Shown: positions 50,321 through 64,000, counted from the first letter of the stretch. The stretch is DNA of 64,000 nucleotides from an uncultured Granulosicoccaceae bacterium (GCA_938045275.1 CALIMV010000177.1:1-64000), one strand, 5' to 3'. Notes: generated by a model from the letters alone, not told the origin. Translations and numbers: made by a program.

Positions 50321-50902
50321 ATGTTAATGCGGCTGATATCACGATACTGGTTATTGGTGCCGCTACTGCTGCTTGCCATTGTTATTCGTGACTGGGTTGA
50401 AACAACACCGACTCTGGTTGAAGTTGAAGAAACAATCGATATGAGCCAAACGCAGTCTGACTATTATCTGGAACAATTTAAAACACGCAAGTTCGATACA
50501 CACGGCAATATCGAATACGAAGTCACCGGCAACACGCTTGCCCACTATCCTGACGATGACCGTTCAGAAATTACCAAGCCCTCCGTCGTGCTGCACCGCG
50601 AAGCTGTTCGCTGGGAAGTTGCTTCGACACTGGGACTGCTAATGAAAGACCCGGCCATATTCACACTACAGGGAGATGTTGTAGTAAAACGCGAGTCTCC
50701 ATCGGGAGAACCGCTAACCATTCGCACAGAGGAACTGTCGATTCTGACCGATGACAATGAAGTTCGAACCGACAAACCGATTGAAATTGTCGCCGAGACT
50801 TGGCAATTGCGGTCAATCGGCTTACAGTCCTCACTCAACGAAGGCAAGCTAAACCTGCTTTCCAAGGTTACCGGGCGTTATGAAGTGGCAAATCCGGAGT
50901 AA
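50321..50902 (+). CDS. lptC: LPS export protein LptC
   Basis: N-terminal TM and YxVTGNTLAHYPDDDRSEITKPSVVL; position before lptA. Start reset to 50321. Confidence 0.9.
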   Translation: MLMRLISRYWLLVPLLLLAIVIRDWVETTPTLVEVEETIDMSQTQSDYYLEQFKTRKFDTHGNIEYEVTGNTLAHYPDDDRSEITKPSVVLHREAVRWEVASTLGLLMKDPAIFTLQGDVVVKRESPSGEPLTIRTEELSILTDDNEVRTDKPIEIVAETWQLRSIGLQSSLNEGKLNLLSKVTGRYEVANPE

Positions 50903-50909
50903 ATTAAGC

Positions 50910-51446
50910 ATGATAATGACATCTTCAAACGAACAATCCGGCACATTCTCACGATTCGTCTTGGTAATTGCCTGCCTGTGTGTGTTGTGCACGACAATGA
51001 TCATTAACAAGGCGCATGCTCGCCAAAGCGATTTCACTCAGCCGATAACTATCAACGCTGACCGCACAGAGTACGATGAAAAGTCCGGCATTCAGATTTG
51101 GTCAGGGAATGTTGTAATGACGCAAGGCACCATGGAAATCAAAGCCGAACGTATCACGATAACACTGCGTGATAAAAAGCTCAGTCGTGTTGAAGGCACA
51201 GGCTCTCCGATTCAGTTTCAGCAGGAAAATGAAGCAGGCGAACTGGTAACCGGCAAAGCCAATGCAATTGACTACAACGCAGAAGAAAACACTCTGGCTC
51301 TTAGCGGAAGCGCAACGTTGACACAACCAGGACAACGTTTGCAAAGTGAACGTATTGTGTTCGACATAAACAAGCAGAAAGTCAGCGCGGAAGGCGGCAA
51401 TAATGGCCGTGTCAGCATCCAAATACAGCCACCCACAGCCAAGTAG
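50910..51446 (+). CDS. lptA: LPS transport periplasmic protein LptA
   Basis: Signal peptide; [39 protein letters not shown]. Start could be 50880 or 50910. Confidence 0.93.
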
Positions 51447-51454
51447 CATACAAA

Positions 51455-52204
51455 GTGAACACCAGATCCGACCCCACAGTACACACACTGGTGGCAAAAG
51501 ACCTGCATAAGGCTTATAAAAAACGCCGAGTTTTGGAAGGCGTTTCAATGAGCGTTAGCAGTGGTGACATTGTTGGCCTTCTTGGCCCCAACGGTGCAGG
51601 CAAGACCACGTGTTTTTACATGGTAGTTGGGCTGGTTAAACCAGATCAGGGACAAATACTGTTCGATGATACCGACATTACTGCCCATCCGATGCATGCC
51701 AGGGCGAGGCTAGGTGTCGGGTATTTGCCACAAGAGGCGTCAGTGTTTCGACAACTGACGGTCACCCAGAATATTATGGCCATTCTGGAGACACGCAAAG
51801 GCCTGAGCAAAGTCGATCAACGTGACAAACTCGAATCGCTACTCGAAGAGCTGCAGATAACCCATATTCGAGACAGCTTAGGGATCAGCCTATCGGGTGG
51901 GGAGCGGAGACGAGTTGAAATAGCACGTGCCCTGTCTGCCGACCCAAGCTTTATATTGCTCGATGAGCCATTTGCAGGCGTTGATCCCATCTCGATCATC
52001 GATATTCAACGCATTATTGAGCATTTAAAAGAGCGTGGAATCGGCGTGTTGATAACCGATCACAACGTGCGTGAAACCCTGGGCATATGCGATCGAGCCT
52101 ATATCCTGAGCCAAGGCAAACTCATAGCCGAGGGTAAGCCAGACGTCATCCTGGCTAACGAACAAGTAAAAGAAGTTTACCTCGGTGAAAATTTTTCCAT
52201 TTAG
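51455..52204 (+). CDS. lptB: LPS export ABC transporter ATPase LptB
   Basis: [82 protein letters not shown] start. Confidence 0.98.
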
Positions 52205-52402
52205 CCCACAACCGATGTAAACACAGCGGTTGTAATCCCAATCGCTTAGTCCATACTCACTAGTTATAAATATTAGTATTGTCAGACAGTGTAGACAGTA
52301 TTATCGTTGCACACGCGTGTCACATTTTTGCCAGAATGGCTTCACGGCGGTATAACGGCATTAGCCATGTCGCTCGCCTTAGATAATCAGTGGATAGCTC
52401 TA

Positions 52403-53989
52403 ATGAAACAGTCAATGCAAATCAAGATGGGCCAACAGCTGGCGATGACTCCCCAGTTGCAGCAAGCCATCAAATTACTGCAGCTATCGACTCTGGAATT
52501 GCAAACCGAAATTCAAACTGCGTTGGAAAATAATCCGATGCTCGAAGTCGCCGATGATGAAGGTGCCGAGCCGCGTGAGAATGATGCTGCCAACGAAAGT
52601 AATGCTGAAATTAATGAGCGCAGGCGCAACGAAGAGAAACTGGAAAAGGAAAAAATAAAGCAAGAAGTTAGCGCAAATTCTGCTGATGACACCATTGTGG
52701 AAGAGCATCTCGAATCTGCCATGAGTGAGAATAATGACTCAATGACCGACTCGATGTCGGACGCCAGCCCTGATGAGCTTCCCGTTGACAGCGTTTGGGA
52801 AGATGTATACGACAACAGCGCCCCGTCCACCTCAAGCAGTGGATCTGATGGAGAATCCCGTGACTTTACAGAGTTTCATAACTCGGGCATCTCAAGCATC
52901 CAGGACCATCTAAATGATCAAATTCGGTTCGCCCCCTTATCAGAACGCGATCAGGTTATCGCAGAAACACTGATTGATGCGGTTGATGATAATGGCTACC
53001 TCATCGACGATGTCGAGATTCTACTTGAGGGTTTGAATCGCGATTTTAAAGACCCGGAAGACATGTTCGAAATGAGCGAACTTGAAGCCGTCCTGCGCAT
53101 GGTGCAACACTTGGATCCACCAGGATGTGGTGCGCGCAATGCCAGTGAATGCATGGCAATACAACTGGGCCAGTTACCACAAACCGATGTAGCAGAAACC
53201 GCCCTTCGTATCGTGACAGATCATCTGGATTTGTTGGCCGCACACGATTTTTCAAGATTGCGGCGTTTGTTGAAGATTAACGACGAACATCTGCAAGAAG
53301 CCATAGCCTTAATTCGAAGTTTAAACCCACGCCCTGGTCGTCAACTTGTGCAGGATCACGATCAATATATTGTTCCTGATGTTTTTGTACAGAAGGCCAA
53401 AGGTGTATGGCGAGTTGAGTTGAATCCTGATATTGCACCAAAGCTTGGCATCAACGCGTTATACGCTGGCATGGTTAAACGTGCAGATAAAAGTGATGAC
53501 AATAACTTTTTAAGAAATCATTTGCAGGAAGCGCGTTGGTTCATTAAGAGTTTGCAAAGCCGCAACGAAACTTTACTAAGAGTTGCAACTGCCATCGTTG
53601 AACGTCAAAGAAATTTTCTCGAGTACGGTGAAGAAGCAATGAAACCTTTGGTGTTACGCGATATTGCGGAACAGTTAAGCTTGCACGAATCAACTATTTC
53701 GCGTGTTACGACACAAAAGTACATACACACACCGCGCGGTATATTTGAATTCAAATATTTCTTCTCGAGTCATGTTTCTACTGCTAATGGCGGGGAATGC
53801 TCCGCAACTGCGATACGCGCCATGATTCAGCGTTTTATAGATGCCGAGGACCGCACGAAACCGTTAAGCGACAGTAAAATCGCTAGCACATTGGTCGCTG
53901 ATGGAATACAGGTTGCTAGAAGAACTGTGGCCAAGTACCGGGAGTCTATGGGCATTGCGCCATCTAACGAACGCAAACGGCTGAACTAG
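52403..53989 (+). CDS. rpoN: RNA polymerase sigma-54 factor
   Basis: MKQSMQIKMGQQLAMTPQLQQAIKLLQLSTLELQTEIQ; RpoN box ARRTVAKYRESMGI. Start reset to 52403. Confidence 0.98.
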   Translation: MKQSMQIKMGQQLAMTPQLQQAIKLLQLSTLELQTEIQTALENNPMLEVADDEGAEPRENDAANESNAEINERRRNEEKLEKEKIKQEVSANSADDTIVEEHLESAMSENNDSMTDSMSDASPDELPVDSVWEDVYDNSAPSTSSSGSDGESRDFTEFHNSGISSIQDHLNDQIRFAPLSERDQVIAETLIDAVDDNGYLIDDVEILLEGLNRDFKDPEDMFEMSELEAVLRMVQHLDPPGCGARNASECMAIQLGQLPQTDVAETALRIVTDHLDLLAAHDFSRLRRLLKINDEHLQEAIALIRSLNPRPGRQLVQDHDQYIVPDVFVQKAKGVWRVELNPDIAPKLGINALYAGMVKRADKSDDNNFLRNHLQEARWFIKSLQSRNETLLRVATAIVERQRNFLEYGEEAMKPLVLRDIAEQLSLHESTISRVTTQKYIHTPRGIFEFKYFFSSHVSTANGGECSATAIRAMIQRFIDAEDRTKPLSDSKIASTLVADGIQVARRTVAKYRESMGIAPSNERKRLN

Positions 53990-54232
53990 TTGCATATGCC
54001 GGAAGAGTACTGTATAGATAGTACTAGGAGTTTTTAAGTATCAGCTGGCATCAGACAAACGTTACTTGTAATTTGCTAACTGTTACAACTTACGCATTAG
54101 CGATTGTGTATAAATTAAGTCTAGGTACACTGAAGTTATCGCGTTACCAACATTACAAGGCAAACACAGGGTATTCACAAAAAATCGGCAATAACTAAAC
54201 GACGAAACAAACGACTTATTGAAACTAACTCC

Positions 54233-54281
54233 TAGCGAACAATAATTTTTCGCTAATAGTGTTAGCTAATATTGTTCGCTA
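54233..54281. repeat. perfect 12-bp inverted repeat in the rpoN-hpf intergenic region
   Basis: TAGCGAACAATA (54233-54244) and its exact reverse complement TATTGTTCGCTA (54270-54281), separated by 25 nt. Confidence 0.9.
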
Positions 54282-54529
54282 AGGTAATACAGTTTTATGC
54301 AGATAGCGCAAGTTCAGCAAATACGATTCAAGGCTTTGATTCACATTCTGTGTTTTCAATCCATACGAATCTCTGAATTTGCTTCCCTCCCTCCAGGAAG
54401 CGCAATCTTCCGCCATTCGATCGCACTGTTCTTACACCACAAACAACCACTACTTTCACTCTTTACTTTAAGTCGTTGCTGTGGTCGTGATAAACAGTCC
54501 TCATTATGTTTATTTAACAGGAGAAATTT

Positions 54530-54868
54530 ATGAATCTTACCGTTACAGGTCATCACGTTGAAGTTACCAGTTCAATGCGAAACTACGTCGCTGAAAAACT
54601 GAAACGACTGCAAAGGCATTCAGAAAACCTGTTCGACATTCACGTCATCCTGTCGGTGGAAAAAGTACGGCAAAAGGCCGAAGCTACCATCCAAATAGCC
54701 GGTGGAAAAATTTATGCAGATACTACCCAACCAGACATGTACGCAGCCATTGACCTGTTAATGGACAAATTAGACAGACAACTCATCCGCCAGAAAGAAA
54801 AATCCAAAAATCACCACCGAGGTAACAAATCCTCCCGACTTGAGGGCACCGAATCGCTGCTGGTGTGA
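54530..54868 (+). CDS. hpf: ribosome hibernation promoting factor, short form
   Basis: MNLTVTGHHVEVTSSMRNYVAEKLKRLQRHSENLFDIHVIL, MYAAIDLLMDKLDRQLIRQKEKSKNHH; 112 aa. Confidence 0.96.
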   Translation: MNLTVTGHHVEVTSSMRNYVAEKLKRLQRHSENLFDIHVILSVEKVRQKAEATIQIAGGKIYADTTQPDMYAAIDLLMDKLDRQLIRQKEKSKNHHRGNKSSRLEGTESLLV

Positions 54869-54926
54869 CAACAGACACTTTCTTATCGCTCCTGAAGAGC
54901 GCACAATAACGGGCTGAAGGAAAGTT

Positions 54927-54950
54927 GCTGCGGTCAATCGAGGCCGCAGC
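54927..54950. terminator. stem-loop between hpf and ptsN (possible attenuator/terminator or processing site)
   Basis: GCTGCGGTC-AATCGA-GGCCGCAGC: 9-bp stem including one G-T pair, 6-nt loop; no clean T tract (CGCTTTACTATT). Confidence 0.4.
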
Positions 54951-54987
54951 CGCTTTACTATTGAATTTAAAACCCGGTTTTTTATGA

Positions 54988-55494
54988 ATGATTGAGTTAT
55001 CAGAGCTACTGGCCCCCAGTCGGATGCGCTGCCAGTGCGATATACGCAGCAAGAAACGCGCTGTACAAACCCTTGCAGAACTTTTAGCCCCCAGCGTCGG
55101 TGAGTTACTGGCCGAAGATGAGGGGCCAGACGACGAAAATCATTCTGACATGGACATTTTTGACGCATTGATCACACGCGAGCGCCTGGGTAGTACCGCG
55201 CTGGGACATGGCGTCGCTCTGCCACACAGCCGCCTGGCAGCCATCGAAGAGCCCATTGCGGCCATGATCACGCTGTCAGATGGCGTGGACTTCGAAGCCC
55301 AGGATGGACAGCCCGTGGACCTTCTGATCGGTTTACTGGTACCGGAGCGTTGTAATGATGAACACTTGAAGATTCTTGCCGCTCTGGCGCAACGCTTCAG
55401 TGATCACTATTTTCGTGACGAGCTTCGCACTTTTGGCACTGGCCAGGCGGAAGACCTGTATGCCTTTTTAAAACAGACAGCGCCCGCTGCCTGA
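54988..55494 (+). CDS. ptsN: PTS IIA-like nitrogen regulatory protein
   Basis: ITRERLGSTALGHGVALPHSRLAAIEEPIAAMITL, PVDLLIGLLVPERCNDEHLKILAALAQRF. Confidence 0.95.
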   Translation: MIELSELLAPSRMRCQCDIRSKKRAVQTLAELLAPSVGELLAEDEGPDDENHSDMDIFDALITRERLGSTALGHGVALPHSRLAAIEEPIAAMITLSDGVDFEAQDGQPVDLLIGLLVPERCNDEHLKILAALAQRFSDHYFRDELRTFGTGQAEDLYAFLKQTAPAA

Positions 55495-55532
55495 GCATCA
55501 TGGGAAAAACGCGTGTGCAGGACTAATCTGCC

Positions 55533-56495
55533 GTGACAAACAAAAGCCGGCTTACAGTCGCAAACGCTTATGCCGAATTCAAGGACGACTTGAAACTCGA
55601 GTGGGTTACCGGCACAGACGGTGGCGATCGCCTGCTGTCCAGCGAACGTGGCGCAGCAAAACGACCTCGGTTGCTCGGTCCATTGAGTTTCAACAGCCCT
55701 AATCGAATCCAGGTTATCGGTAAAGCCGAATCACGCCTGTTTGAGCACGCAGAGCAACTAGAGCCTTCGCGCTTCGAATACTCCCTGGAACAAAGCTGCG
55801 AGCTATTTATTGTCACCGACAACACCAAACCGCCGGAACCGATCATCAATCTGGCCAAAAAGGCCAAAATTCCACTGTTCGTTACACCGCTGGCCTATAG
55901 TGAACTATTTCGCACCTTGCGCTATCGGCTAACACAGGTACTGGCAGAATCCGAAATCATTCATGGTGTGTTAATGGACGTACACGGTACTGGCGTACTA
56001 ATCACTGGTGAAGCAAGTGTTGGTAAAAGCGAATTGGCACTTGAACTGATCAGTCGAACCCATATTCTAGTAGCTGACGATGCACCAGAATTTCGTCGTA
56101 TAGCACCAGGAACGGTTGAAGGTCGTTGTCCACCGTTATTACAGGATTTTCTGGAAGTGCGCGGCCTGGGTGTGCTTAATATTGCCCGTATGTACGGCGA
56201 CGCACATACACGAAAACGAAAAATTTTACGCTTTATTATTAACCTGAAAAACGTCAAAACATCCGATTTCGAAAACTCTCTGGAACATATCGTTGGTGAA
56301 CGTTTGGGTGAACCGGATGCGCAGCGAGACGTACTGGGCGTGTCAATTCCACAACGGACCATTCCTGTTGCACCGGGTCGCAACTTAGCGGTACTGGTGG
56401 AAGCGGCAGTACGAGACTACATACTGCGTTCGGGTGGCTACAATGCCACGCGCGACCTGGTGGATAAACAGGCACAGGCGCTGACACAAACATGA
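55533..56495 (+). CDS. hprK: HPr kinase/phosphorylase
   Basis: VLITGEASVGKSELALELISRTHILVADDAPEFRRI (Walker A), EVRGLGVLNIARMYGD. GTG start. Confidence 0.95.
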   Translation: MTNKSRLTVANAYAEFKDDLKLEWVTGTDGGDRLLSSERGAAKRPRLLGPLSFNSPNRIQVIGKAESRLFEHAEQLEPSRFEYSLEQSCELFIVTDNTKPPEPIINLAKKAKIPLFVTPLAYSELFRTLRYRLTQVLAESEIIHGVLMDVHGTGVLITGEASVGKSELALELISRTHILVADDAPEFRRIAPGTVEGRCPPLLQDFLEVRGLGVLNIARMYGDAHTRKRKILRFIINLKNVKTSDFENSLEHIVGERLGEPDAQRDVLGVSIPQRTIPVAPGRNLAVLVEAAVRDYILRSGGYNATRDLVDKQAQALTQT

Positions 56496-57355
56496 ATCGA
56501 CTCATCATTGTTACCGGACTTTCGGGTTCAGGAAAGAGCGTTGCACTACATACTTTGGAAGACGAAGGGTTTTATTGCATCGACAATTTACCCAGCTCCA
56601 TGGTTAAAGATTTGCTCGATAGGGTTTTAATTGAAAAAACCAAGTTGTTTGAAAATCTCGCTATTGGTATCGATATGCGGGGCGAACACTACACACCAGA
56701 TCAATTTCTTAGCGTAATCAAGTCATTACAGGCAAGGACCGACTTGCCAACCGACGTTTTGTTCTTGGACACCTCGCGTCAAACCCTTTCCACTCGTTTC
56801 AGTGAAACACGCCGCAAGCATCCACTAAGCTCCAATGCTGTTCCTCTCATTAATGCTATCGATAAGGAAATTTCGCTACTTTCAAGTGTAAAACACGAAG
56901 CTGATCTGGTGATAGACACATCGCTGCTCAACTTGCATCAGTTACGTAAACTAATCAGCACAGATGTGCTTGGCAGGTCATCGGCTGATCTGTCGTTAAT
57001 TTTTCAATCGTTCGGCTTTAAGCATGGTCAGCCAACGAGTACCGATTTTATGTTCGATGTGCGATGCCTGCCCAACCCTTATTGGGAACCAAGCTTGCGT
57101 GAATTCACTGGCAAAGACGAGCCAATCATAGATTATTTGGGTGAACAGGAAAACGTGCAGAATATGTTTTCTGACATCCAGCAATATGTGGAACGTTGGT
57201 TACCGAGTTTTGAAAACGAAAATAGATCATATTTAACCGTGTCGATTGGTTGCACAGGTGGCCGCCATCGCTCTGTATATCTGTGCGAATTATTGGCAGC
57301 GCATTTTAGTAACATGCGTGAAAACGTATCTATTCGACATCGCGAGCTAAACTAG
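56492..57355 (+). CDS. rapZ: RNase adapter protein RapZ (GTP/ATP-binding)
   Basis: IIVTGLSGSGKSVALHTLEDEGFYCIDNLPSSMV, FQSFGFKHGQPTSTDFMFDVRCLPNPYW, IGCTGGRHRSVYL. Confidence 0.97.
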   Translation: MNRLIIVTGLSGSGKSVALHTLEDEGFYCIDNLPSSMVKDLLDRVLIEKTKLFENLAIGIDMRGEHYTPDQFLSVIKSLQARTDLPTDVLFLDTSRQTLSTRFSETRRKHPLSSNAVPLINAIDKEISLLSSVKHEADLVIDTSLLNLHQLRKLISTDVLGRSSADLSLIFQSFGFKHGQPTSTDFMFDVRCLPNPYWEPSLREFTGKDEPIIDYLGEQENVQNMFSDIQQYVERWLPSFENENRSYLTVSIGCTGGRHRSVYLCELLAAHFSNMRENVSIRHRELN

Positions 57356-57435
57356 CATTTGGCCGAGCGTTCTGCACTATTTCGCCTGAAATGTTCGAGT
57401 ATGTTATTCGTAAATACCTGTTGAGGACTTAAACC

Positions 57436-57705
57436 TTGATTAATAGTGAAATTAGCATTATTAACAAATTAGGGTTACATGCACGCGCAGCTGCTAAACT
57501 GGTAAAACTGAGTGCAAGTTTTGAATCGACTATTGAAATAGAGAAGGACAACCAAAAGGTCAACTGTAAAAGCATTATGGGCGTAATGATGTTAGCGGCC
57601 AGTTGTGGAAGCGTGGTAACACTGTATGTAGATGGACCAGATGAACGCAGCGCAATGGATGCAATAGAAGATCTAATAAACCGATATTTCGACGAAGACG
57701 AATGA
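57436..57705 (+). CDS. ptsH: HPr family phosphocarrier protein (NPr-like)
   Basis: INKLGLHARAAAKLVKLSASF (HPr active-site His15 context), KSIMGVMMLAASCGS. TTG start as predicted. Confidence 0.95.
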   Translation: MINSEISIINKLGLHARAAAKLVKLSASFESTIEIEKDNQKVNCKSIMGVMMLAASCGSVVTLYVDGPDERSAMDAIEDLINRYFDEDE

Positions 57706-57712
57706 CACTGTC

Positions 57713-59449
57713 ATGACCCTGATGTTCAATGGCATAGGCGTATCCAAAGGCTTCGCCATTGGCGAAGCTTATGTATTACATCGCAATCAGGTTGATGTTA
57801 CTGCTCGCAAGCTAACAAAAAAACAAATTCCCGCCGAGTGCCGACGCCTCAGAAAAGCCATTAAAGTCGCTAAAGCCGAATTGCTCACAGCCCGCGACAA
57901 TATACCCAAAGACGCACCCAGCGACATTAGTGCGTTTATTGAAACCCATATTCTCATGCTCGACGATGGATTGTTGAGCGACACACCAGTCGATATTATA
58001 AAAGCTGAACAATGTAATGCCGAAGCCGCGTTACAACAACAGCGCGAAGCTCTGGCCAAGGTATTTGGCTCAATGGATGATGAGTACCTGGCTACCCGCA
58101 TTGACGATGTAAACCATGTTATTGATGCTGTGTTACGAGTACTTGATAACGGTGAGGTGGTTACACCGGCTGAGAATTGGAAGGGGCAGATTGTTATCGC
58201 AGATGACTTAACACCTGCCGACACGGTGTTAATGCAACACAACGGCGCTGCAGGATTTGTAACCGAAACTGGCGGCCAGCTTTCACACACAGCTATCCTT
58301 GCTCGCAGCTTAGGGATTCCAGCGATGGTTGGTGTGCACAATATTCGCCAATATGTAAAATCCGGAGAGACTCTCACACTTGATGGTAAGCGTGGTTTGC
58401 TGCTGGCTGAGCCCAGCGATAATATGCTTAAGGAACTGCGTAAGCAAAAAAAGGCATTCAAGCAACAACAGCGCGACCTGAACAAACTGATCGATAAACC
58501 AGCGATCACGCAAGATGGTGTTGAGTTAAACCTCTTTGCCAATATAGAAATTGAAGAAGATTTAAAAGCGTTAAAGCGTGTAAATGCTGCAGGCGTTGGT
58601 TTATACCGTACCGAATTTTTGTACTTAAACCGCGATGCTCTGCCAACCGAACAAGAACATTTTAAAGACTACACGAAAGTACTGCGCTCGCTCAAAGGCG
58701 CCATGTTAACCATCAGAACCGCAGACCTCGGCGCCGACAAAGACTTCTCTCCAAACCATATCACCACTAGCGGCCCGCTGGCCCACAACCCGGCAATGGG
58801 TTTACGTGGCATACGTGTGTGCTTAAACGAACCGGCTTTGTTCGAAACGCAACTACGCGCTATTTTACGCGCGTCGGCACGTGGCCCACTACAAATTCTG
58901 TTACCGATGCTAACCACGGTAGCCGAAGTAAAACAAGCTTTAGCCATTATTGATTCAGTTAAGCAATCGCTAACCGAAGAAGGTATAGAGTTCGACCCCA
59001 ATGTTGCCGTTGGCGGCATGGTTGAAGTACCGGCTGTTGCCATCGCTGCTGATCAGTTCGCACAGCACCTGGATTTTCTATCCATCGGCACAAACGATCT
59101 GATTCAATACACACTGGCCATTGATCGAATCGATGACCAGGTCAATTACTTGTACGACCCACTACACCCGGCTGTTTTACAGCTGATAAAACACACCATT
59201 GATGCAGGACAACAAGCGGGCATTCCCGTCACCCTGTGCGGCGATATGGCCAGTGATACACGTTTTGTTCGCGTGTTGCTCGGCCTTGGCTTATCCGAAT
59301 TCAGTATGCCGCCAAATTCGTTATTAGCCGTTAAGCACAGTTTGATTAATGCGCGGCGAGTGCGTGTACGAAAATTTTGTATGGCACTGATGAAAACCAG
59401 TGATGCCAAAGAACAGGAATCTTTGCTCGAGCGGATTAATCGGGAGTAG
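57713..59449 (+). CDS. ptsI: PEP-protein phosphotransferase, enzyme I
   Basis: ETGGQLSHTAILARSLGIPAMVG (active His), GVGLYRTEFLYL, IGTNDLIQYTLAIDR, TLCGDMASD; no N-terminal GAF domain. Confidence 0.95.
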   Translation: MTLMFNGIGVSKGFAIGEAYVLHRNQVDVTARKLTKKQIPAECRRLRKAIKVAKAELLTARDNIPKDAPSDISAFIETHILMLDDGLLSDTPVDIIKAEQCNAEAALQQQREALAKVFGSMDDEYLATRIDDVNHVIDAVLRVLDNGEVVTPAENWKGQIVIADDLTPADTVLMQHNGAAGFVTETGGQLSHTAILARSLGIPAMVGVHNIRQYVKSGETLTLDGKRGLLLAEPSDNMLKELRKQKKAFKQQQRDLNKLIDKPAITQDGVELNLFANIEIEEDLKALKRVNAAGVGLYRTEFLYLNRDALPTEQEHFKDYTKVLRSLKGAMLTIRTADLGADKDFSPNHITTSGPLAHNPAMGLRGIRVCLNEPALFETQLRAILRASARGPLQILLPMLTTVAEVKQALAIIDSVKQSLTEEGIEFDPNVAVGGMVEVPAVAIAADQFAQHLDFLSIGTNDLIQYTLAIDRIDDQVNYLYDPLHPAVLQLIKHTIDAGQQAGIPVTLCGDMASDTRFVRVLLGLGLSEFSMPPNSLLAVKHSLINARRVRVRKFCMALMKTSDAKEQESLLERINRE

Positions 59450-59684
59450 GTGCTTTATCCTCGCAGACTTTATGCAATGTTAAATTTATCAGGCATGCAT
59501 ACTCATTTTAAACCCACAGAAACAAACCCCATCGATTTGTAAATCATTGACAAATAACACTTAAACATTTCGACAAGATCACCCTTTTCAATACCGGGTG
59601 CCCTCCATCGAGCTGTAAATTGCGCTAAGGCACGGTTACTGCCTTTCAATGCCGTATAAAAGTAACCCCCTGAAATTCACCACC

Positions 59685-62600
59685 ATGACGTCGCTAAAAC
59701 TCTCCACGCTACCCGGCCTGTCGATATTGACGCTGGCCACTTCAATGCTGGTTATATCGCCTAAGGTTCTCGCTCAGACCCAGGAATTTCCTGAACTTCA
59801 AGATCGAACGGGTGAAGTGCTCTCTGGGTTGCCGAACGACAGCTCGGCAAAGATCGTGGAATTGGGAGACTTTAACAACGACGGCTCGGAAGATCTGATT
59901 ATCTCCCGAACAGGCGATGACCCTGTGCTGTTGATGAACACAGGCGGTGGGTTGAACAATGACACTGCCCTTTTTATGTCATCGGCATCCAGCGCCAACG
60001 ATTCGCTGTATGTGGAAGCCTTCGATGCAAATGGAGATGGATGGACCGATGTGGTTTTTGGCAGAAGAGCCGTGGAGCCCATTCTCTTTATCAACCTTGC
60101 TAATGATGCCACGGGTGCCTGGCTAGGCTTTGATAGCGGCTCCGTCGTGCCGGGCACGTCGAACAATCTGGTTTTGGAAGCCGGTGACGTAAACGGCGAC
60201 GGCGCGGACGATTTATTCGCGATAAGGGTTGAGCGCGATACCAACGATCTGTTGATTAATGATGGCAGCGGAAACTTTACCGCCGAGAGCAATAAACTCG
60301 GCGGCCTCGGTGATCTGACTCGCGGGCACAGCGCGTTACTTGCCGATGTTGAAGGAGATGGTGATGAAGATATCGTGTACATCGAATCAGATCTGTTCCT
60401 GCACATCTACTACAACGACGGCAATGGAAACTTTGACGACATAAGACGTACCACATTTCGCAATCCTGATAATTTTGCTTACATTTTCGGAGCAGCAGAT
60501 TTCAACGGCGACGGCATATTTGACTACCGTCAATATTCTAATCCGGCTCCAAATGCTGAAATGTCTGATGGCACCTTCGATGCCAATGGCTTGCCCAACT
60601 ACACCGTAAGAACCGATGCCAACATGCTGCGCGGTAATCGCAAGCACGGCACGGTACATATTCGTGATATCGATGGCGATGGCGATCTTGACTATGTGCT
60701 GTCAAGCATCCTGCGTAACTTTGGTGGTCTGCGAAATACCACAGAAGGCATGCGTACTGAAATGGTTTTTAACACAGGCTTAAACAGCGGTGAATTTGTT
60801 ACGTTCGTTGGCGAAGACTGGGGTAACGAAGAATCGTTTGACATGAAGATTCTGGATATTAACGGCGATGGCAACATGGATATGTTTGTTGCACACCAGT
60901 TTCGCTATGGCGTGTACATGAATGGCCTGCCACCTGCAAACCTGGTTCTTGGAGATCGTACCAGTACGCCAGCCAGTGTTCGCAGCGCCCCTCTTTCGCT
61001 GAGTGTTGCAGTTGAGTCAGGAACAGCGACCAGTTTTAGCTGGGAATTCGGTGACGGCACAACGGCAACCAGTACGTCACCATCCATTTCGCACACCTAT
61101 GCCAATCCCGGACGTTATCAAGTGACGGTGACGGCGAGCAACGCGGTGTCTTCCGACCAAATCACATTCTTTCAACGAGTGCACGACCCTTTGTTACCCA
61201 ACCGGGCGCAGTCCTCGATGGATATGATTTACCAGCAACGAACAGACGATGATCGGGTTTTTATCGTTAACCCTGACAATGACAGCGTTACCGCGATTAA
61301 CGCGGTTACCGGTGCTTTGATAGGTGAGGTTTCAGTGGGTGATGAACCACGTTCTATTGCGCTTGGCAATGGCGGTCAAGCCTATGTTGTTAACAAGAAC
61401 TCCGATTCGATCAGTATTTTCAATACCACCTCCCTGACCATCTCTGGCACGCGCAATCTGCCAAGAGCGTCGCGCCCACATGGCATTGTATTAGACCGAT
61501 CAACTCAAATTGCCTACATTGCACTTGAGGCAAGCGGTGAAATTTTGAAAGTGGACACGCCGTCGGGTCTTATACAAGCCAGCGTTGATGTCGGCCCCAC
61601 ACCACGCGAATTAGCACTCAGTGCCGACGGCGCCACCTTGTACGCACCTCGATTCATCACACTGCCTGTCGCCGGCGAAAACACTCGCTCACCCGGACAA
61701 GACGGCGGTGATCTTATGGTGATTGATACAACATCAATGACTCAAGTCGACAACATCAATATTGTTGTCAATACGCCACCAAACAATATTGATACGGAAG
61801 TAAACGCGCGAGGCGTGCCCAATTATCTGCGAGCTCCAGCTATATCTCCCGACGGACTACGAGCAGCCTTGCCGTTAAAATTGGATAACATTTTCCGCGG
61901 TTCCATGCGCGATGGCCAAGCCAGAACCCACGATATGCTGATACGCGGCGCACTGTCACAAATAAATTTGGTATCGGGCAGCGAAGTATTAAATAACCGA
62001 TTTCAGTTTGACAACAATTCCCAACCCACGGCTATTGCTTACGGGCCAACGGGCAACTATCTGTTCGTCGTCCATGAAGCCAGCCGTAGTTTTGAAGTCA
62101 TTGACGTTCATTCCAACGAGATCATTTATTCCGACATATTAGGGTTTGCTCCAACTGGCGTTATTGTATCTCCCAATGGTGAACAGGTATTCGTGCATAA
62201 CTGGCTTGATCGTAGTGTGAGCGTCATTGACAGCAGTGCACTAATGGCCGGCACATCCAGCAATGCCGACACCGTTATCACCACTGATCTGGTGAGCACC
62301 GAAGCATTGCCTGACCGCGTGCTCGCTGGCAAAAAACTGTTTCATGATTCAGCGGACTTGCGCTTGTCAGCACAAAAATACATCAGCTGCGCAGGCTGCC
62401 ATGACGAAGCAGGACACGATGGAAGAACGTGGGACTTCAGCGATGCTGGTGAAGGTCTGCGTAATACCATTGATTTACGCGGACGCGCAGGCATCGGTAA
62501 CGGCAACGTTCACTGGAGTGCCAACTTCGACGAAATTCATGATTTCGAAAACGACATTCGCGAAATTTTCGACGGCAGCGGATTGCTCACTGATGCCGAC

Positions 62601-64000
62601 TTTACAGCATCATCAGCACCGCTCGATCCGGATACACCCAAAGCTGGCAGGAGCACATCGCTTGATGCTCTGGCAGCCTATGCTGCGACTCTGTCCAACA
62701 TTGGTAACAGCCCATATCGCGATGTCAGCGGAACACTAACAGCAGCTGGACTACGCGGCAAAGACGTATTCGATGCAGCCTCATGTGCCACTTGTCATAA
62801 CGGTGATCATTTCACCGACAGCTTAGAAGGCCGTACCCACAACATTGGCACAATCGATCAGGACACAGGTGGCAGGCTCGGTATGCCGCTTTTAAATGGT
62901 GGACTGGACACACCAACATTGCGCGGGCTGTGGCACGGTGCTCCGTACTTGCATGATGGCGAGGCTCTGATACTTCAGGATGCAGTACTCGCACACACGG
63001 CTGACATGCCCATTGACCCCGCAACGCTCAGTACAGCGCAGCTTGATGATCTTGCAGAATACTTATTGCAAATAGACGATGCAGAACCGGCACCGGCAAT
63101 GCCGAATGAACCGACAGATCCAAACAACCCGACAGCGGCCTCAACACAAGCATCCATCACCATCGACGGCAATCTGGCTGACTGGCCTGCAGCATCACAA
63201 GTTGCTACTGACCCCGAAGATGTAGCCGGTGCGCAGAACACACTTGATCTTGCAAAAGTATGGATGGCGCACGATGGTCGCCGCCTGTTTTTACGCTATG
63301 AAAACCATCTGCCTGATAATGCCGTACTAACCTGGGGCTATGGCATATACATTGATGTCGATGGCAATGACGGCTATACCGGCTTCGACTCGGAATTGCC
63401 CACAGGCATAGACTACATGGTTGAAGCAAACGTGTTGTACCGTTATACCGGTACAGGTACGAACTGGTCATGGGAAGCCGTAAGCAATCTGAGACTGGCA
63501 CTCTCAGGCAGAAGCGCCGAGTTGGCGATCATGCGCTCCGATCTTGGCGATGCCACCGCAATTAATGTGTTCTTCTACGCAAACAACGAAGCTGTGCAAG
63601 GCACCGTCCGCGACTACCTGCCCGATGCCGCCGGTGATCCACTGGCCGTTGCTGACCAGCGTGTTATCGCTTACAACTTTGGTGGCAACGCTGATCCAGA
63701 TCTGTCTGCTGCGCAACCTACACAAAAGATAACCAACAAAGTAATCGAATCCGATATCACCGTTGATGGCAATCTTGCCGATTGGAGCACACTGACATCA
63801 TTTGGAACCGACCCAATTGACCTATTCGGCAGTAACAATCCAATTGATTGGCGCGAAGGCTGGATGGCGCACTCAGATGACAATTACTACATTGCCTGGG
63901 AGAACAAACTGCCAACCCAAGTGACCTGGGGCAATGGCATTATGCTCGATACAGATTCGAGCACGGCAAACGGATTCACAGGATTTTCTTCTGAATTACC
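59685..64000 (+). CDS. giant secreted multidomain protein: FG-GAP/VCBS repeats, PKD domain, YVTN-like propeller, di-heme cytochrome c (CCP/MauG-like), tandem CBM9/DOMON-like repeats; 3' end outside the window
   Basis: Read by hand in one frame from ATG 59685 to the window end (about 1438 codons, no stop found); not listed in the ORF track because it has no stop within the window. Signal peptide MTSLKLSTLPGLSILTLATSMLVISPKVLAQ; GDFNNDGSEDLI; SFSWEFGDGT...SISHTYANPGRYQVTVTASN; VGDEPRSIALGNGGQAYVVNKNSDSISIFN; CAGCH (62388) and CATCH (62784); ITIDGNLADW / ITVDGNLADW repeats. Confidence 0.88.
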   Translation, partial: MTSLKLSTLPGLSILTLATSMLVISPKVLAQTQEFPELQDRTGEVLSGLPNDSSAKIVELGDFNNDGSEDLIISRTGDDPVLLMNTGGGLNNDTALFMSSASSANDSLYVEAFDANGDGWTDVVFGRRAVEPILFINLANDATGAWLGFDSGSVVPGTSNNLVLEAGDVNGDGADDLFAIRVERDTNDLLINDGSGNFTAESNKLGGLGDLTRGHSALLADVEGDGDEDIVYIESDLFLHIYYNDGNGNFDDIRRTTFRNPDNFAYIFGAADFNGDGIFDYRQYSNPAPNAEMSDGTFDANGLPNYTVRTDANMLRGNRKHGTVHIRDIDGDGDLDYVLSSILRNFGGLRNTTEGMRTEMVFNTGLNSGEFVTFVGEDWGNEESFDMKILDINGDGNMDMFVAHQFRYGVYMNGLPPANLVLGDRTSTPASVRSAPLSLSVAVESGTATSFSWEFGDGTTATSTSPSISHTYANPGRYQVTVTASNAVSSDQITFFQRVHDPLLPNRAQSSMDMIYQQRTDDDRVFIVNPDNDSVTAINAVTGALIGEVSVGDEPRSIALGNGGQAYVVNKNSDSISIFNTTSLTISGTRNLPRASRPHGIVLDRSTQIAYIALEASGEILKVDTPSGLIQASVDVGPTPRELALSADGATLYAPRFITLPVAGENTRSPGQDGGDLMVIDTTSMTQVDNINIVVNTPPNNIDTEVNARGVPNYLRAPAISPDGLRAALPLKLDNIFRGSMRDGQARTHDMLIRGALSQINLVSGSEVLNNRFQFDNNSQPTAIAYGPTGNYLFVVHEASRSFEVIDVHSNEIIYSDILGFAPTGVIVSPNGEQVFVHNWLDRSVSVIDSSALMAGTSSNADTVITTDLVSTEALPDRVLAGKKLFHDSADLRLSAQKYISCAGCHDEAGHDGRTWDFSDAGEGLRNTIDLRGRAGIGNGNVHWSANFDEIHDFENDIREIFDGSGLLTDADFTASSAPLDPDTPKAGRSTSLDALAAYAATLSNIGNSPYRDVSGTLTAAGLRGKDVFDAASCATCHNGDHFTDSLEGRTHNIGTIDQDTGGRLGMPLLNGGLDTPTLRGLWHGAPYLHDGEALILQDAVLAHTADMPIDPATLSTAQLDDLAEYLLQIDDAEPAPAMPNEPTDPNNPTAASTQASITIDGNLADWPAASQVATDPEDVAGAQNTLDLAKVWMAHDGRRLFLRYENHLPDNAVLTWGYGIYIDVDGNDGYTGFDSELPTGIDYMVEANVLYRYTGTGTNWSWEAVSNLRLALSGRSAELAIMRSDLGDATAINVFFYANNEAVQGTVRDYLPDAAGDPLAVADQRVIAYNFGGNADPDLSAAQPTQKITNKVIESDITVDGNLADWSTLTSFGTDPIDLFGSNNPIDWREGWMAHSDDNYYIAWENKLPTQVTWGNGIMLDTDSSTANGFTGFSSEL

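Follow-up and report, generated by a model that had tools for sequence, protein, structure and literature searches.

We propose that a giant gene in the genome of an uncultured marine Granulosicoccaceae bacterium (GCA_938045275.1) encodes a polyprotein precursor. The gene lies at the end of the stretch of DNA that we analyzed (CALIMV010000177.1:1-64000, "the window"), which covers bases 1-64000 of a contig of 79424 bases (G000:C177). We think that rhombosortase and the lipoprotein pathway probably each make a cut in the product of this gene, which would leave a di-heme enzyme at the cell surface and a cytochrome that is a lipoprotein. We hold this view with moderate confidence, as the processing and the functions are predicted from the sequence.

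The giant gene is a single frame of 2124 codons that is free of stops up to the stop codon at 66021-66023. (All of the features that we describe are on the + strand.) The part within the window spans 59649-64000. There are two candidate starts: an ATG at 59649, or an ATG at 59685 that lies ahead of a Sec-type signal sequence (59685-59777, MTSLKLSTLPGLSILTLATSMLVISPKVLAQ). (This signal sequence and the lipobox were identified by inspecting the sequence and the alignment.) An earlier note on the window had reported one open frame from 59685 to the window's end, and indeed we found no stop or frameshift; the frame runs on to 66023. The earlier note had also proposed extending the contig to find the C-terminus and a sorting signal. 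This placed the true C-terminus 2 kb past the end of the window and revealed an internal GlyGly-CTERM-like signal, a lipobox, and a second cytochrome. Overall, this one stop-free frame holds a head (FG-GAP repeats, a PKD domain, a propeller, and a di-heme domain), three beta-rich repeats, the GlyGly-CTERM-like signal, a basic loop, a lipoprotein signal peptide, a CHRD domain, and a mono-heme cytochrome c.

At the junction between the two putative products, the GlyGly-CTERM-like motif and the first hydrophobic segment begin at 64932 (DDGGSGSLTLWALAWLSVLSGLRLWTSTR). The basic loop separates this segment from the lipoprotein-like signal peptide (FATMSVLALLLSGC), whose lipobox cysteine is encoded by the codon at 65115. 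A Ser/Gly/Asn-rich tether then leads from the lipobox cysteine to the CHRD domain (65340-65675, E = 2.9e-17), and a third heme-binding site, CSSCH, is at 65748-65762. Lipoprotein signal peptides are normally N-terminal; this one instead lies about 1800 codons into the frame, far from where the translated chain begins. Similarly, GlyGly-CTERM is defined at the extreme C-terminus (PMC3237569); in the giant gene, the GlyGly-CTERM-like signal is followed by over 300 codons, including the lipobox, the CHRD domain, and a CxxCH site, so it is not at the extreme C-terminus.

We searched for homologs of the giant gene in 95 related genomes and found many; judging by the named matches, the family is Granulosicoccaceae. 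The in-frame junction is present in nine genomes (G000, G028, G044, G042, G045, G029, G030, G040, and G039), at the fused loci L006, L042, L044, L045, L046, L047, L058, L057, and L188. At these loci, the giant open reading frame ends with the CHRD part. The fused loci are spread over several separate assemblies, several of them from different studies, and complete fused genes with the same type of head as G000 are about 50% identical to it. This recurrence bears on another explanation, in which the gene encodes an ordinary exported multi-domain di-heme protein and errors of sequencing or assembly created the apparent second half. In its favor, our source genome is fragmented (499 contigs, 82% complete), but the in-frame junction is shared by nine genomes at an identity of about 50%, and several of these genomes come from different studies. 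We therefore rejected an assembly or frameshift artefact, and we consider this explanation to be very improbable. Furthermore, the chance that eight junctions would all lack a stop codon was estimated by shuffling at 3.8e-8 in total, for sequences that are related and hence not independent. In the pair L046/L047, pS (the synonymous differences per site) is 0.71-0.80, which is saturated or nearly so, while pN (the nonsynonymous differences per site) is just 0.16 in the CHRD-cytochrome (pS 0.71). The low pN implies purifying selection on the downstream part as a protein.

The two signals at the junction are also conserved. A basic n-region, a hydrophobic stretch, and an invariant lipobox cysteine are present in all 9 fused loci (by inspection and alignment), and we predict that the segment before the CHRD domain is a lipoprotein signal peptide that is lipidated and cleaved. 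From the glycine motif through this cysteine, the only invariant columns are the glycines, one leucine, and the cysteine itself, and the loop between the two signals ranges from about 3 to 46 residues. The GlyGly-CTERM model TIGR03501 scores above its curated cut-off of 15.5 bits inside 5 of the 9 fused chains (17.0, 19.2, 21.4, 18.0, and 17.3 bits). A junction model with 48 positions, spanning both signals, was searched against 48 family genomes and 369 genomes from the class. In the family genomes, it found 7 full-length places (E ≤ 1.6e-15), which are the members that it was built from; the weaker matches in the family (E ≥ 1e-5) were all partial. Among 40 matches to the second half that we examined, 38 had a methionine upstream and a chain downstream, as in lipoprotein signal peptides, and 2 of the 4 matches to the first half end at a stop codon. 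Thus, each half of the junction resembles a known signal by itself.

The two strongest rivals to a polyprotein are an uncut membrane hairpin and internal initiation. If the fusion is not cut, then the two hydrophobic segments would form a hairpin in the inner membrane and hold one large protein there, with the heme domains at both ends facing the periplasm. The frame is open, both segments are hydrophobic, and a basic cytoplasmic loop would give the identical topology. But such a hairpin needs neither a glycine motif nor a lipobox cysteine, yet these are the invariant positions of a variable linker, and each half of the junction matches a known processing signal. We therefore view the uncut hairpin as quite unlikely.

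Alternatively, two overlapping genes might share a frame by chance: the first gene would have lost its stop codon, and internal initiation would make some or most of the lipoprotein. Relatives do have separate neighboring genes (see below), and L058 has a good internal start: an ATG that follows a Shine-Dalgarno-like AGGTG just ahead of the lipoprotein signal, which would give MKQAKLITGVIASAFLVTAC. Internal initiation is thus possible at L058. In contrast, L044, L046, and L006 have no internal start that would yield a normal lipoprotein signal peptide (the sole ATG in the L006 junction gives MSVLALLLSGC, which lacks basic residues). Also, the frame stays open in all nine loci, and the first gene still lacks a stop codon, so a read-through product must form. 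Overlapping genes seem rather unlikely to us.

The same enzyme and cytochrome are encoded by two neighboring genes in related loci. L043 and L048-L053 encode the CHRD-cytochrome as a lipoprotein, with its own lipoprotein signal, from a separate gene that adjoins the giant gene. These separate CHRD-cytochrome c lipoproteins share their domains, the lipobox, and a low-complexity tether with the fused tail. (L054-L056 have a similar lipoprotein cytochrome without CHRD.) This pairing of neighboring genes in relatives leads us to suggest that the cytochrome is the partner of the enzyme. Two of the fused genes (L057 and L188) stop after CHRD and bear another di-heme head; there are thus at least two types of head that carry this tail.

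In a tree built from 50 cores, one clade (100/99) groups all six fused genes that have a complete type-A head with two unfused members. The tree needs three changes in fusion, and one gain plus two losses would account for them.

A different propeller/di-heme head (CASCHVDGKWDRLGWDLGD...) is found at L188:1894-8457 and L189:11522-17656 with the same repeats, junction, and CHRD domain, and the last cytochrome is absent. G042 has, directly behind its fused giant gene, another CHRD-cytochrome lipoprotein gene that is free (L045:7023-7877). L043:4296-9818 (from G003) is unfused but lies within the fused clade; it has the glycine motif and the hydrophobic segment and then an odd tail, which is possibly a remnant of a lost fusion. 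The CHRD-cytochrome gene of L043 is divergently transcribed. Finally, the unfused giants of a sister clade (L048-L053; for example, L051:4037-8080) end in a JDVT-CTERM-like signal (23.9 bits in L051, with a cut-off of 27); in these relatives of the enzyme, one sorting system seems to have been exchanged for another.

Part of the machinery that the proposed processing would require was found. G000 encodes a true rhombosortase (TIGR03902, 149.4 bits versus a cut-off of 84), as do 14 of 14 relatives tested (above cut-off in 15 of 15 genomes, with G000 included), and it also encodes the type II secretion secretin GspD. Lgt and LspA are general in Gram-negative bacteria and were assumed to be present. 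We envision that the Sec machinery would thread the chain outward, then back inward, and then outward once more, and that rhombosortase would cut at the first hydrophobic segment. The large enzyme would be passed to the type II secretion system and to the cell surface. Lgt and LspA would lipidate and cut the remainder at the lipobox cysteine, so that the CHRD-cytochrome would become a membrane lipoprotein. This would yield two heme proteins at the surface in a 1:1 ratio: a CCP/MauG-like enzyme, which may be a peroxidase or an oxidase, and its likely electron-transfer partner. A 2026 study reported that the GlyGly-CTERM signal functions independently of its passenger (PMC13393428). As to the broader idea that, in Granulosicoccaceae, back-to-back GlyGly-CTERM and lipoprotein signals are a self-contained "cut here" cassette, joined to at least two enzyme heads, which would give a true bacterial polyprotein (with one chain as the source of both a di-heme enzyme sorted to the surface and a cytochrome that is lipidated), we consider the odds to be even.

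Besides the internal start at L058, several points weigh against a polyprotein. First, the processing of the giant chain is predicted rather than experimental. Second, the GlyGly-CTERM score of G000's own protein is 10.5 bits, which is under the curated cut-off, and the long-looped G000 and G028 are not matched by the compact junction model. Third, the junction arrangement is seen in Granulosicoccaceae only: a search with the CHRD-cytochrome found no such fusion in the 369 genomes from the class, and the junction model had only weak, mostly half-length matches in the same genomes. A pattern scan of 120 loci (many of which overlap) returned the fused loci, one unrelated membrane protein, and nothing else. 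Fourth, most of the genomes are metagenome assemblies. And fifth, the tree alone only forces three changes; one origin followed by two losses is how we interpret them.

We now turn to the head of the giant protein. The FG-GAP repeat region (59802-60938) has five stretches that match PF13517 (FG-GAP_3, E = 2.6e-23), and the positions of its Asp/Gly motif are invariant across 6 relatives. It is followed by a PKD domain (60987-61169, residues 447-507; PF00801, E = 5.5e-17) and by a YVTN-type beta-propeller that is similar to the beta subunit of hydrazine synthase (61215-62258; TIGR03866, E = 4.4e-20, and TIGR02276, E = 1.4e-11; also supported by a structural model and Foldseek). Next is a CCP/MauG-like di-heme domain (62301-63083; PF03150 or CCP_MauG, E = 7e-9, and PF00034 or Cytochrom_C, E = 3.7e-6) with heme-binding motifs CAGCH (62388-62402) and CATCH (62784-62798). 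The Cys, Cys, and His of both motifs are invariant in a 35-row alignment of the propeller and di-heme part. With two CxxCH sites and a PF03150 score of 36.9 bits (versus a gathering cut-off of 25.6), the giant protein belongs to the di-heme CCP/MauG superfamily. These matches to Pfam and NCBIfam models confirm the PKD, YVTN propeller, and di-heme CCP/MauG modules that the earlier note had recognized; of its "VCBS/FG-GAP" repeats, FG-GAP stood and VCBS did not.

An AlphaFold model of the propeller and di-heme part, built with the 35-row alignment, had a predicted local distance difference test score (pLDDT) of 89 and a predicted TM-score (pTM) of 0.91. By Foldseek, the nearest propeller fold by E-value was an archaeal S-layer YVTN protein, and, of the top propeller fold matches, hydrazine synthase beta had the highest TM-score (5c2v_B; TMt 0.74, E = 2.3e-19). 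A profile of the same part also matches hydrazine synthase gamma (5c2v_C), bacterial cytochrome c peroxidases, and MauG; among solved structures, hydrazine synthase beta and gamma are the nearest to it. The tryptophan of an HWxxNF motif, which comes after an RNT motif, is invariant in all 35 rows. A published comparison describes a tryptophan that is conserved in CCP, MauG, and non-anammox homologs and that is replaced by a histidine in hydrazine synthase (PMC12758564); we infer that the invariant tryptophan is this one. The NCBIfam models of hydrazine synthase beta-gamma and of MauG show a definite, though low, similarity to the giant protein, but the scores are so far under the cut-offs that we rejected membership in the hydrazine synthase beta-gamma family (NF052342, 61.7 bits and E = 3.9e-17, versus a cut-off of 1250) and in MauG proper (TIGR03791, 37.6 bits versus an equivalog cut-off of 443.85). 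The combination of propeller and di-heme domains is a widespread and already known kind. The combination of modules that the earlier note described is not confined to the giant protein: the order of domains in the head is family-wide, and the propeller/di-heme core is present across several phyla.

The head is followed by beta-rich repeats of about 185 amino acids. The first is at 63147-63698; the second begins at 63747 and is cut by the end of the window at 64000; and the third is at about 64335-64808 on the contig, outside of the window. The second copy is 40% identical, and 19 copies of the repeat align well. None of these 19 members had a match to CBM9 or DOMON in Pfam. When the structural model of the repeat (pLDDT 86) was compared to the Protein Data Bank (PDB) by Foldseek, nothing was significant (the best E was 0.02, and the hits were mostly immunoglobulin domains), and a profile search gave no significant PDB match either. 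This is a well-defined beta-rich repeat without a known family in Pfam or PDB. The earlier note was correct that there are repeats, but their identification as CBM9/DOMON-like has neither a Pfam match nor a fold match, so the suggested role in binding polysaccharides is unsupported. Similarly, its suggestion of an exported redox enzyme that is anchored to polysaccharide or to the surface survives in part: there is an exported propeller/di-heme protein with a surface-sorting signal, but anchoring to polysaccharide via CBM9/DOMON was not supported. The repeat is common in giant proteins of Granulosicoccaceae.

Directly upstream of the giant gene (50880-59449) are what we take, from their translations, to be lptA, lptB, rpoN, hpf, ptsN, hprK, rapZ, HPr, and a ptsI-type gene, and mgtE comes after it on the contig. 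We found no matches to the flanking mgtE and ptsI in 19 related loci. Without conserved neighbors, the genomic context gives no clue as to function. Elsewhere in the genome, a second, small YVTN-propeller protein of 331 amino acids (L007:3248-4243, on G000:C274) is encoded beside a response-regulator/histidine-kinase gene.

If the giant gene does encode a polyprotein, then rhombosortase is able to act in the middle of a chain. It would also be a rare and directly testable bacterial polyprotein that arises from protein sorting enzymes, with no dedicated protease. And it would tie a widespread but uncharacterized family of propeller/di-heme enzymes to a specific cytochrome partner.

How does the giant protein compare to known systems? 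Like hydrazine synthase beta/gamma (5c2v) and its non-anammox homologs (PMC12758564), it has a seven-bladed-type propeller and a CCP-like di-heme part. In contrast, hydrazine synthase lacks the FG-GAP, PKD, and repeat domains, and we saw no alpha-subunit partner adjoining the giant gene. With MauG and the bacterial di-heme CCPs, the giant protein shares two CxxCH sites, the RNT motif, the invariant tryptophan, and the TPTLRGL..PYLHDG motif. Unlike in those proteins, its di-heme part sits behind a propeller, and its whole-protein scores are under the MauG and MbnH cut-offs.

As for the proposed processing, we found nothing in the open papers searched that links GlyGly-CTERM to a polyprotein (a single joint mention was unrelated), and nothing relevant about an internal signal peptide with a lipobox or about a bacterial polyprotein with signal peptidase. 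The fbcH cytochrome b/c1 of Bradyrhizobium is a redox polyprotein from a bacterium, and signal peptidase cuts it at an export signal within the chain. It differs from the giant gene in that it has no rhombosortase signal and no lipobox, and its products are subunits of a respiratory complex. The known substrates of rhombosortase with GlyGly-CTERM signals, such as VesB of Vibrio cholerae (PMC3237569, PMC6219818, PMC13393428), share with the giant protein a glycine-rich motif, a hydrophobic segment, and basic residues, as well as a cognate rhombosortase in the genome and the type II secretion protein GspD. Unlike in those substrates, the frame of the giant gene continues past the signal into a lipoprotein signal peptide and a further protein.

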